Below, piece after piece: positions 44,750 through 49,048 of a stretch of DNA of 64,000 bases. This DNA comes from an uncultured Dehalococcoidia bacterium (GTDB lineage: Bacteria > Chloroflexota > Dehalococcoidia > Lucifugimonadales > UBA3495). The position numbers were made by a program, and so were the translations under genes. Each line of letters opens with the position of its first letter. Position 1 is the first letter of the stretch. The notes beneath the pieces were generated by a model, which made no database searches, was not told where the DNA came from, and saw only the letters and a list, made by a program, of their open reading frames with translations. The DNA is taken from contig OX638345.1 of the NCBI GenBank assembly GCA_951813535.1, forward strand, positions 2,167,158 through 2,231,157. The letters run 5' to 3'.

Positions 44750-45187
44750 TTATGTCAAATGGATGATCTCGACGTCGCCCCAGTGTTGCTGGAAATGCTC
44801 GGCAAGGAGCCGGCGGTGACAACGCTCGGGCTGGTCTTCGCTGCACAACAGGCAACTGTCGGCGATTATATCCTGTGGGATGGCGGCTCGGATTAGCCGG
44901 CGCCCGATAATTGATTGGAATATGGATTCATACTGGTCCCAGGTTATGTCACGTTTCCGGTAGCCGTCCAGCAGCGAGTCGGTGGGCGACAGGCGGGGCA
45001 GGTGGACGTAGTCCATGCCGCAGAGTTCCTGGAGGAACCACGGCAGGTCGCTTTTCTTGGAGAACCCGGCCAATCCCGACGTGTTGCGCAGCCGCACGTC
45101 TACCACTCTTTTGGCGCCGGACTCACGGAGCAGTCCGAAGAACTGGGCCGCGGATTTGCGGGTAAAGCCGATCGTGTAGAGTTTCAC
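44750..45187 (-). CDS. DUF488 protein (shorter copy)
   Basis: A 145-residue DUF488 domain. LYTIGFTRKS at the start, VVDVR at 28-32 and LLCSEDQPERCHRRLL near 114-128 are the three conserved motifs, with Cys115, Glu117, Cys123 and His124. The GTG start overlaps the stop of the longer DUF488 gene (GTGA). Its biochemical role is unknown. The pair may form a heterodimer: the shorter copy differs in the loop after VDVR (LRNTSGLAGFSKKSDL) where the longer has SAPYSRYAPQF. Confidence 0.83.
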   Translation of the reverse strand: MKLYTIGFTRKSAAQFFGLLRESGAKRVVDVRLRNTSGLAGFSKKSDLPWFLQELCGMDYVHLPRLSPTDSLLDGYRKRDITWDQYESIFQSIIGRRLIRAAIPQDIIADSCLLCSEDQPERCHRRLLAEHFQQHWGDVEIIHLT

Positions 45188-45819
45188 GGATCGGCCTCCC
45201 ATACGTTGTTGACGGATGGCAGGTCGGTCGCCACATAGGCGAACTTGATAGCCTGCCTGGTCAGGGCTTCTGCGACTACGTCGGATCGGGTGCGAAACAT
45301 GTCACCGTGCGGGGGAAGCTTGTGCAGGTTCAGCAGGCGGCTCATGGCGTCGTCGTGGCTCTCCAACGAAGCGTCCGCCTGGATGTGAGCAACATCAACC
45401 CCCCGATCAAAGAGCGCTCGTGCCACCAACAGGGTGCGGTGACATTCCAAGGGCTCTTTCTCGGTGCAAAGTAGCGCCAGGCGGCACTCATCCGCCAAGC
45501 GGGCAACCCGCCGAAGTGCGTCGTCGAATGAATCGGTCTCAGCCACCCGGTCATACTGGACACGGCCATCTGCGTCATAGCACGAGCGGTCAGCGGGGCG
45601 GCCGCCCAACTCACCGCCAAGGTACGTGTAGCCGATGCCAATGTCCTCCAGCATCCGCTGGAGCCCCTCGTGATTGAACTGGGGAGCATAGCGACTGTAC
45701 GGCGCCGACCGGACGTCGATGACCTCGTCGATCCCGTGGCGAACTACCAGGTTGATGAACGCCTCAGGCGAGTGGTTGGAATGTCCGACGGTGAGGACCA
45801 TCGGCTGCGTATCATTCAA
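45184..45819 (-). CDS. DUF488 protein (longer copy)
   Basis: A 211-residue DUF488 protein. TVGHSNHS near 10-17, IDVRSAPYSRY near 34-44, YLGGELGGRP near 66-75 and LLCTEKEPLECHR near 116-128 are strongly conserved in the family, including Cys118, Glu120, Cys126 and His127. The C-terminal ~60 residues, absent from the shorter copy, are unrecognised. Start is the TTG at 45819 with GGAG about ten bases upstream; an ATG at 45801 lacks a ribosome site. It lies 14 bases after the dual-OB gene. Confidence 0.83.
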   Translation of the reverse strand: MNDTQPMVLTVGHSNHSPEAFINLVVRHGIDEVIDVRSAPYSRYAPQFNHEGLQRMLEDIGIGYTYLGGELGGRPADRSCYDADGRVQYDRVAETDSFDDALRRVARLADECRLALLCTEKEPLECHRTLLVARALFDRGVDVAHIQADASLESHDDAMSRLLNLHKLPPHGDMFRTRSDVVAEALTRQAIKFAYVATDLPSVNNVWEADP

Positions 45820-45833
45820 TCGATGATTCTCCG

Positions 45834-46517
45834 TCAGGGCCTGATGATGGCGGCGATCAGCTTGTACGCGTTACCCTCGAACGGTTCGCCGAGGCTGACG
45901 GTCAGGTAACGCTCTCCGACCGGGTATTCGCCGTAAGGTAGATCCACCGATCCGCTCTCGCTGACCGGGTCGGTAATGCGGAAGCAATAGGCCTCGTCGC
46001 AGTGGGTGAAGCGTCCCCGCAGTATCGGGTAGTTGGCGCTGGGCCGCGACGGCTCGGATACGGTCACGGTCAGATCACCGACCCGCACCAGGCGCAGGGA
46101 AGTGTCGTGAGCGGCCGCGATGTCCTCCGGAACCTGGTCGTTTTCGCCGCTCCGGGAGTGGAATCCATTGGTCCACAGAGGAGCGTCAGGCTCGGCCAGT
46201 TGCGACAAGTCATCCCACGCCACTCGCCCGACTTTGCGCCACTGACGAGACGGGTTCAGCAACCAATTTTCCTGTTGGTAACCCTTGGGTTTGGGACTGA
46301 GGAGGGGCACTTCGACTGTGTCCAGTAGTTCCGGATCGTTGCCGTCCGCATAGCGCCTTTCGCGGTCCGAGACTGCCTCGTTCTCACGGTTGCTGACCGG
46401 GCGTATCCAGCTGCCCGGTTTGGCTTCGTCCGACAGTTCCTTTCCGGCTACGCAACGTCCGGCATTCTTGCGGGAATTGGCGAGGCACACGATACGCTTG
46501 ACTGTCAGCGTGGTCAC
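45834..46517 (-). CDS. Dual-OB-fold domain protein
   Basis: A 227-residue protein whose N-terminus matches the dual OB domain family as I remember it: IVCLANSRKNAGRCVAGKE at residues 9-27 and SWIRPVSNRENEAVS at 36-50. The later part is beta-rich, consistent with a second OB fold, and OB folds often bind nucleic acid. No catalytic motif is seen. The GTG start at 46517 has GGAG seven bases upstream; the longer frame overlaps the preceding gene. DUF488 genes follow directly, an association I believe is recurrent in bacteria. Confidence 0.72.
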   Translation of the reverse strand: MTTLTVKRIVCLANSRKNAGRCVAGKELSDEAKPGSWIRPVSNRENEAVSDRERRYADGNDPELLDTVEVPLLSPKPKGYQQENWLLNPSRQWRKVGRVAWDDLSQLAEPDAPLWTNGFHSRSGENDQVPEDIAAAHDTSLRLVRVGDLTVTVSEPSRPSANYPILRGRFTHCDEAYCFRITDPVSESGSVDLPYGEYPVGERYLTVSLGEPFEGNAYKLIAAIIRP

Positions 46518-46530
46518 GGGCAACTCCGCG

Positions 46531-47304
46531 TCAGCCCAGCATTTGCCGGGCCACCCGAAGGTAGGCGATGGCAGCCTCGGTGTTGAGGCGGTCGTCGGCG
46601 TCGCGGAGGCGGCCTTCGGCGTCGATGCTGACGGCGGACCACCGGGGCAGCAGGGGCGACAAGAGTTCTCCGATGTTCCCGGCGTGGAGGCCTCCGGCGA
46701 CCACCAGGCCCAACTCCGGAGCGGCGGAGCGAATGGCCGCGAGATAGTCGGCGGAGCGGGAAGCGTCCAAGGGGAGGCCCAGGCCCTCGGAAGCGTCAAC
46801 CAGGACGTCGGTCACCAGACCGGAGTATTCGGCGCAGCGGCGAGCCAGTTCGTCGGGCTGGTGGTCAGTGGATTGCATCGCCTCGCGCCCAGCTTGGAAT
46901 ACGATCCGGGACGGACGGTAGCGTTCGCGGTACGCCTCCAGACCGTCGGGGTCTGGCCAGGGAGCGCCGCGGGTTGCGTTGATCTGCACCCCGTGGCAAT
47001 TGGGGCCGCCAACCTCGGTGGCGCGGGCCAGAGCATCCGCCAAGTTCGCGCCCGGGGGCGGCCGGTAGTGAACGAGGTTTAGACAGCGGGGATCGTCGGA
47101 GAAGATGCCAGCCATGGTATTGGGCGCCGGGCAACGGTTGGGCGCGTCGCTGGCGTTGCCCGCGAGCAGAGCGTTGCTCAACAAGGCGCCACACATCAGC
47201 AGGCGGCTCGGCTCCGCCGAAACCGATTCCAAGACGGCATCGACCTCGCTCCGCGAACAGAATCCTGTTATGCCGATGTACGGCGCGGTACGGGAGAGTG
47301 TCAC
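46531..47304 (-). CDS. TrpF-like phosphoribosyl-type TIM-barrel protein
   Basis: A 257-residue predicted TIM barrel. GITGFCSRSEVDAVL near the start resembles the KICGI start of phosphoribosylanthranilate isomerase, and LVVAGGLHAGNIGELL near 200 followed by SAVSIDAEG resembles its phosphate-binding end. The catalytic Cys and Asp of true TrpF are not clear, and no trp genes are near, so tryptophan synthesis is unlikely. GTG start at 47304. It is 14 bases before the dual-OB gene and 26 bases after the ligase. Confidence 0.6.
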   Translation of the reverse strand: MTLSRTAPYIGITGFCSRSEVDAVLESVSAEPSRLLMCGALLSNALLAGNASDAPNRCPAPNTMAGIFSDDPRCLNLVHYRPPPGANLADALARATEVGGPNCHGVQINATRGAPWPDPDGLEAYRERYRPSRIVFQAGREAMQSTDHQPDELARRCAEYSGLVTDVLVDASEGLGLPLDASRSADYLAAIRSAAPELGLVVAGGLHAGNIGELLSPLLPRWSAVSIDAEGRLRDADDRLNTEAAIAYLRVARQMLG

Positions 47305-47330: not shown

Positions 47331-48965
47331 CTAGACGCCCAGGCCCAGTTGTTCCGCGGCCATTTGACGCAGCAGGTACTTCTGCACCTTGCCGCTCGAG
47401 GTCATCGGGTAGTCGTCCAAAACGACCAGGTGGCGCGGGATCTTGAAGCTGGCCATTTTGCCGCGACAGAAACCGTCCAGGTCGGCGTCGGTGATGGCCT
47501 GCCCCGGCTCGACGACCACGCAGGCGCAGGCGACCTCGGTCAGCCGCGCGTCCGGCACGCCGATCACCTGCACCTTGTTGACCGCCGGGTGCTCCAGCAG
47601 GAAGGCCTCGACCTCCGTGGGGTCGACGTTTTCGCCGCCGACCTTGAGCATGTCCTTGTAACGTCCCATGAACCGGATGCTGCCGTCGTCGCGCATGGTG
47701 GCCACGTCGCCGGTGTGGAACCAGCCCTCATCGTCAATTGCTTCGGCCGTGGCCTCGGGGCGCTTGTAGTAGCCTTGCATAACGGCGTAGCCGCGAACGA
47801 GCAACTCGCCGACGGTCGACGGGGGCAGGGTTTCGCCGGTTTCCGGGTCGATCACCTTGAACTCGTAGCCGGGCAAGGGGTGGCCACTCTCGATACAGCG
47901 GTCGTTCTCGGGCGCGTCCAAGAAGGTTCGCGTGGCTCCCACACCCACCTCGGTCATGCCCCAGGCCGAGAGCGACGGACAGAGTTTCTGCTGCGTCAAG
48001 CGGGCGGTGGGTTCGCTGGAGGCCATCCCGACGGCGAGCAAAATCGTGCGCAGGCTGCTCCGGTCGATCCGGTCGACGTCGCGGTGGTGGGTCAGGTCGA
48101 AGAAGTGGGTGTCGAACCCGTTCATCACCGTGGCCCGCTCCGATTCCAGGAGACCCAGCACCTCGCCGGCATCGAACATGGTGGTCAGCACGACGCGGGC
48201 TCCGGTGACCCACGACATCAACGGCCCCTCGTACAGGCCGAAACAGTGGAACAAGGGCAGATACATCAGGATCACATCGCGTGAGGACGTGGCCATGCGG
48301 TTGGCTGCGTCGGTGATGGTCCGGATGGGGTTGTGGCAGTGCATCACGCCCTTGGGGAACCCGGTGGTGCCCGATGTGTACATCAGGAGGAAGGTATCGT
48401 CGGGGCTGACGGCGGCCTCGCGATGGGCCAGTTCGGAGGCAGGCACCTCGTCCGCGCCGGCGAGCATGGCGTCCCAGTCGATAGTGCCGGAGAGGTGGTT
48501 TTCTCCAGTCACAATGACGTTGCGCAGGGCCGGGAACGCGGCCGGGCGCAGATCGGTGGCGTTCCCGGTGTCGATTTCCGGAGCGACCTCGCGCAACATA
48601 TCGAGGAAATCGACGGGTCCGGAACGGTCCATGAGGATGAGCGCGGTCGAGTCGGAATGGTTGACCAGGTACTCCATATCGGCGGTGCGGAAACGGGTGT
48701 TAATGGGCACCAGCACGGCCCCGATCTTGGCCACCGCTCCAAACAGGAAGAGCCATTCCGCGCGGTTGGGCATCCACAACGACACCTTGTCGCCAGGCTG
48801 GACGCCGAGGTTGATCAGCGCCCGGGCCACCCGGTCAACTTCGTCGCGGAACTCATCGAAAGTCCAACGGCGTCCCTCGTACATCAATGCTTCTCGGGGG
48901 CCGAATCGTTCGGTGGCCTGGTTGAGCAGGTCTCCGATCGTCTGCTTGGGAAACCAGTCGGACAT
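47331..48965 (-). CDS. Acyl-CoA synthetase (AMP-dependent ligase)
   Basis: A 544-residue adenylating ligase. The AMP-binding motif is LLMYTSGTTGFPKG near 190, then WGMTEVG, the YYKRPEATAEAI linker, HTGDVATMRDDG, and the C-terminal catalytic Lys in SSGKVQK near 527. It activates a carboxylic acid to acyl-CoA through acyl-AMP. The fatty-acid or aromatic substrate cannot be told. GGAGG precedes the ATG at 48965. It is first in the long minus-strand run down to the S9 peptidase. Confidence 0.93.
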   Translation of the reverse strand: MSDWFPKQTIGDLLNQATERFGPREALMYEGRRWTFDEFRDEVDRVARALINLGVQPGDKVSLWMPNRAEWLFLFGAVAKIGAVLVPINTRFRTADMEYLVNHSDSTALILMDRSGPVDFLDMLREVAPEIDTGNATDLRPAAFPALRNVIVTGENHLSGTIDWDAMLAGADEVPASELAHREAAVSPDDTFLLMYTSGTTGFPKGVMHCHNPIRTITDAANRMATSSRDVILMYLPLFHCFGLYEGPLMSWVTGARVVLTTMFDAGEVLGLLESERATVMNGFDTHFFDLTHHRDVDRIDRSSLRTILLAVGMASSEPTARLTQQKLCPSLSAWGMTEVGVGATRTFLDAPENDRCIESGHPLPGYEFKVIDPETGETLPPSTVGELLVRGYAVMQGYYKRPEATAEAIDDEGWFHTGDVATMRDDGSIRFMGRYKDMLKVGGENVDPTEVEAFLLEHPAVNKVQVIGVPDARLTEVACACVVVEPGQAITDADLDGFCRGKMASFKIPRHLVVLDDYPMTSSGKVQKYLLRQMAAEQLGLGV

Positions 48966-49048
48966 GGCGCGGGTCCTCCGATGAATTAGTCGGTCGGGTG
49001 GAGCAGTGAGACCGGGACTGTTACCGGATTGGAGGAGACTGAGCACCG

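Follow-up and report, generated by a model that had tools for sequence, protein, structure and literature searches.

The window, by which we mean the whole 64 000-nucleotide stretch of DNA that was analysed, carries four open reading frames on the minus strand between positions 44750 and 47304, and their predicted positions were confirmed. These genes and their two direct neighbours are listed below.

47331–49046, minus strand: acyl-CoA ligase gene (PF00501, E 1.9e-84), context, directly upstream of the barrel gene
46531–47304, minus strand: gene for a TrpF-like TIM barrel, GTG start, 257 amino acids; adjacent gene, judged to lie outside the cassette
45834–46517, minus strand: gene for the dual OB-fold protein DuOB (PDC-M45A), GTG start, 227 amino acids
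45184–45819, minus strand: long DUF488 gene (PDC-M45B), TTG start, 211 amino acids
44750–45187, minus strand: short DUF488 gene (PDC-M45C), GTG start, 145 amino acids
43788–44738, minus strand: phosphotriesterase (PTE)-family gene (PF02126, E 6.3e-65), context, directly downstream of the short DUF488 gene

The close packing of the four genes was borne out, including the GTGA overlap, in which the GTG start codon of the short DUF488 gene overlaps the TGA stop codon of the long one. The other gaps in the run are 13 and 14 bases. Tight packing continues on both sides, with 26 bases between the end of the acyl-CoA ligase gene and the start of the barrel gene, and 11 bases between the end of the short DUF488 gene and the start of the PTE-family gene, so that spacing alone cannot define a four-gene unit. 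We refer to the genes for DuOB, the long DUF488 and the short DUF488 protein as the trio. According to Pfam annotation, the trio is surrounded by metabolic genes in the window.

DuOB matches PF22557 over the complete profile (positions 1–210 of 210; E 3.6e-65, 220.4 bits, above the cut-off of 27 bits). The long and the short DUF488 protein match PF04343 with E-values of 1.6e-22 (80.8 bits) and 3.4e-18 (66.9 bits), respectively, both above the cut-off of 22.2 bits, and their genes are the sole DUF488 genes of the window's own genome, G000. Against the DUF488-N3a family (PF22751, cut-off 27 bits), the short protein scores above the cut-off (35.5 bits) and the long one below it (16.3 bits). In PADLOC, the trio is recognized as PDC-M45, DuOB being PDC-M45A (4.6e-83), the long DUF488 PDC-M45B (8.9e-73) and the short DUF488 PDC-M45C (2.7e-62). 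All three component models are matched over almost their full length by three adjacent genes on the minus strand. The window copy differs in its company, as it adjoins the barrel and metabolic genes, without a recognized defence system, HigBA or Hma as neighbour. The PDC families derive from the 'guilt-by-embedding' preprint (Payne et al., 2024, bioRxiv 10.1101/2024.01.29.577857, cited in PMC12988326), and according to PMC12988326, most PDC-type candidates still await validation. Our literature search for PDC-M45 found neither a paper naming it nor a published test or experiment. The original prediction knew of no solved function for such genes; the trio is less unknown than was claimed, since it is already catalogued.

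For a survey of gene neighbourhoods, 84 980 species genomes were scanned with motif patterns based on the DuOB alignment, a scan that favours this DuOB subtype. Of the 50 loci obtained, 44 share one arrangement, with DuOB followed by the long and then the short DUF488 gene on the same strand; the DuOB gene is interrupted or was read incompletely in a few of these 44, and in two it is just a fragment. The trio loci span at least seven phyla (Chloroflexota, Latescibacterota, Binatota, Gemmatimonadota, Acidobacteriota, Actinomycetota and Pseudomonadota). Two unequal DUF488 copies, as noted for the window, are the rule across trio loci and not peculiar to this genome. A second sample, consisting of 400 genomes of the phylum, was searched by the DuOB family model alone. 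DuOB was present in 45 of the 400 genomes, and 29 loci were read. The three genes lie side by side in 15 of the 29, with two gene orders: DuOB–long–short is complete in eight loci (a ninth is cut by the locus end), and long–short–DuOB occurs in seven (an eighth has a marginal DuOB match of 15 bits). Six loci have both DUF488 genes beside a DuOB too divergent for the profile used, and another six lack a detectable DUF488 gene within 1.5 kb of DuOB. Pairwise distances correlate between the three trio genes (Mantel r 0.52–0.71 for 27 loci; the highest of 2000 permutations gave 0.41). Such a correlation is expected for a unit inherited together and partly reflects shared ancestry. No DuOB was found in phage records. 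We conclude that the trio is a genuine, conserved and already catalogued candidate anti-phage module. Two tandem DuOB genes were seen in the trio loci L070, L083, L091, L119, L121 and L122.

Both DUF488 proteins contain the motifs on which the idea of a catalytic pair was based: D35-V-R37 and C118-x-E120...C126-H-R in the long protein, D30-V-R32 and C115-S-E117...C123-H-R-R in the short one. The motifs are also retained across relatives, their residues being kept in at least 96% (long) and in 96–100% (short) of 54 partly redundant sequences. Judged from sequence, they suggest a cysteine-based chemistry. A pair of one active and one inactive protein (N3a/N3i) was considered and rejected, because the motifs are kept in both copies and DUF488-N3i (PF22752) has no match at E ≤ 0.001 in G000. 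The two proteins of the window share about 27% identity, whereas mean identity across phyla is 53% within the long and 64% within the short DUF488 proteins; the pair is therefore old and consists of distinct subunits.

A RapZ-C-DUF488-DUF4326 clade was reportedly described by Burroughs and Aravind, and prior work on the DUF488 clade is said to have put forward reactions centred on sugar or phosphate, and the processing of DNA ends. The trio resembles this clade in having DUF488 with an active-site cysteine and in the co-occurrence with DuOB. A further likeness is seen on plasmids of Klebsiella and Acinetobacter, where DUF4326 replaces the long DUF488 beside DuOB and the short DUF488 (L114:4995–6658, L115:5013–6701); a variant of this kind adjoins a NotI-type restriction system. 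The window differs from the clade in that both of its DUF488 proteins keep the motifs and DUF488-N3i is absent from the genome. A literature search for DUF488 together with rhodanese or RapZ gave nothing useful, and a sequence search among solved structures found no relative of the short DUF488 or of DuOB. Relatives of the short DUF488 are present in 131 plasmid records. An orphan relative with 50% identity is carried by an IncC plasmid, where it is flanked by uvrA and by genes of the formaldehyde response (L116:8001–8432).

The AF2 model of DuOB (pLDDT 92.1) has two strand-rich halves forming two OB-like barrels, in agreement with the predicted OB folds. In a structure search of the model, the N-terminal half, which has an OB-like fold, resembled PriB, CTC1, telomere-end-binding protein and SSB at Z 7–8, matches that cover one OB half and lie near the background of the tool (Z about 8). 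OB folds bind proteins or small ligands too. The likeness of the modelled first half to single-strand DNA-binding OB folds is suggestive of nucleic-acid binding and not proof of it.

The TrpF-like TIM-barrel fold was confirmed by a structure search of the AF2 model (pLDDT 92.8): several TrpF (PRAI) structures head the list with a VIA Z of 18–19, among them 4aaj (Z 19.0, rmsd 2.4 Å over 191 residues). The barrel differs from TrpF in that it has no match to PF00697 and seems to lack the catalytic cysteine of strand 1 (YIGIT versus KICGV, compared by eye). Its invariant columns contain no Cys on strand 1; the profile match to the organism's own TrpF is short and too weak to fix the alignment. No match was found for the barrel in Pfam (E ≤ 1), NCBIfam or PADLOC. 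That it might be the TrpF of the organism was rejected, since a PF00697 search of G000 finds just a separate trpF elsewhere.

The original prediction saw in the barrel, if it binds a phosphoribosyl compound, a new partner of the DuOB and DUF488 proteins. In such a four-gene unit, it would supply or consume a phosphoribosyl-type compound for them in this lineage, a role to which its TrpF-like fold, with PRAI structures as top matches, would be suited. Gene order also speaks for this reading, as trio genes lie within about 2.1 kb downstream of the barrel in 12 of the 13 genomes carrying it (own genome included), even in G028, from a sister genus, where the acyl-CoA ligase ortholog is missing. 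Adjacency in 12 genomes can be explained by shared ancestry; the break in G003, which speaks against the four-gene reading, is a single event. In that genome, 1.4 Mb lie between the barrel and the trio: the barrel, at 1.79 Mb, has kept its place beside the acyl-CoA ligase gene, followed by genes which by eye look like xerC and uvrC, and the trio is found at 0.36 Mb between apparent aromatic-pathway genes and an ABC transporter. The 13 barrel genomes, from a relatives set of 99, belong to the window's genus and one sister genus. The barrel is absent from the other 399 of the 400 phylum genomes sampled, the sole carrier being the window's own, and none of the trio loci outside the window's family carries it. 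In several genomes, toxin–antitoxin genes separate it from DuOB, and the remaining spacing in the gene run is equally tight. Thus, the proposed association holds for DuOB and the two DUF488 genes and fails for the barrel outside one family; within the genus, the barrel is tied to the acyl-CoA ligase gene. On the evidence of G003, the phylum sample and the loci elsewhere, we rejected the barrel as a core component and regard the four-gene unit as highly improbable. Most likely, the barrel is a metabolic neighbour with a lineage-specific placement and not part of the cassette.

The genes inserted between barrel and trio in several members of the genus are a HigB-like/HigA-like pair. Seven of 13 genus members (G001, G002, G003, G006, G007, G009 and G012) have HigBA upstream of trio genes, and in G003 it accompanies the trio at the second site. 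The match to the HigA family TIGR02607 (E 8.7e-9) and the HigB-like match (E 3e-4) are both under the curated cut-offs. In G002 and G003, the HigA-like domain shares one open frame with DuOB (L042:8127–9116, L043:7254–8300), possibly a natural fusion of a toxin–antitoxin part with the cassette. The site varies in other ways. G001 has HigBA and, of the trio, the short DUF488 alone; in G007, there is no DuOB, and HigB is split; in G006, DuOB is truncated and matched just to residue 80, and the long DUF488 is gone. In G012, a truncated 3′ relic of the barrel is joined to DuOB in the manner seen in the window (L050:7505–7645), with HigBA between the relic and a full barrel; we interpret the relic as a trace of recombination at the barrel–DuOB junction. 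Such turnover is in keeping with an accessory locus of the defence type. Two side observations concern the same site. In G006, the truncated DuOB is followed by a gene resembling RCC1 repeats (L045:785–1597). In G010, barrel and DuOB are separated not by HigBA but by two small genes (149 and 99 amino acids; L048:7034–7782); neither has a Pfam match, and the first looks HEPN-like by eye.

These data could also mean that HigBA and the trio together form a mobile addiction or abortive-infection module, in which DNA binding of the HigA type would regulate DuOB or recruit it. Its recurrence upstream of trio genes in seven genus members, its presence with the displaced trio of G003, the shared frame of HigA-like domain and DuOB and the sub-cut-off family matches are all consistent with such a module. 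HigBA is missing, however, beside the trio of the window and at nearly all loci outside the genus, and is therefore not required. We consider this reading distinctly unlikely. Also very unlikely is a further reading for the genus: by joining HigBA, with HigA in frame with DuOB in two species, the module would have become a defence unit that is guarded by a toxin and modifies nucleic-acid ends, its two distinct, active DUF488 enzymes performing successive steps on one end.

Beyond the genus, the neighbourhood survey bore out the expectation that DuOB and DUF488 genes are associated in bacteria in conflict-type settings. In five loci, the trio is embedded between HmaB directly before and HmaC directly after it. 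Hma (helicase–methylase–ATPase) is a candidate defence system defined with PADLOC (PMC8565338). Unlike these loci, the window's genome has no match to the HmaB methylase domain DUF1156 (PF06634), so the window trio would work alone or with other partners. A protein of about 410 amino acids with SLFN_AlbA_2 and HATPase_c_4 domains is encoded directly before the trio in ten loci (L074, L078, L085, L094, L095, L100, L104, L105, L106 and L108) and is a candidate for a fourth component in other phyla. On plasmids, the trio is found beside CBASS genes and TcmP/DUF5131 and also inside a csm6/csx16/cas1 locus (type III CRISPR). Many trio loci have no recognizable defence gene next door.

Some trio loci are flanked by ordinary genes. 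Together with the metabolic context in the window and the plasmid-borne orphan between uvrA and formaldehyde genes, these loci would fit a housekeeping function as well, in which the trio cleans damaged ends or nucleotides as a nucleotide or nucleic-acid repair module and takes no part in defence. Against this stand the patchy distribution (DuOB in 45 of the 400 genomes of the phylum), the carriage on plasmids and the repeated embedding in Hma or proximity to CBASS and CRISPR genes, and we think a housekeeping role unlikely.

What has been observed is that the unit is conserved, that both DUF488 copies have the motifs, that the N-terminal half of DuOB has an OB-like fold in the predicted model, and that the company elsewhere is of the defence type. 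On balance, and with modest confidence, we favour a model in which DuOB presents a nucleic-acid end to the two-enzyme DUF488 pair of the PDC-M45 module, in defence. DuOB would hold on to an exposed end or to nucleic acid in single-stranded form. The two DUF488 proteins, as distinct, anciently diverged enzymes with active-site cysteines, would form a pair and may associate with DuOB in a heteromeric complex. The pair would carry out a phosphate or sugar-phosphate transfer on the end held by DuOB, or act on a nucleotide that comes from this end. In loci that have it, the Hma or AlbA_2–HATPase machinery would supply recognition and energy. Phages or other invading DNA would be the target.

The analysis distinguishes a conserved candidate defence module from the barrel gene, which most likely just adjoins it. 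It identifies the two DUF488 copies as old and distinct, both with active-site residues, and names Hma and AlbA_2–HATPase as recurring partners. If a reaction on nucleic-acid ends were demonstrated, DUF488 would gain a biochemical role that we did not find described in the literature searched.
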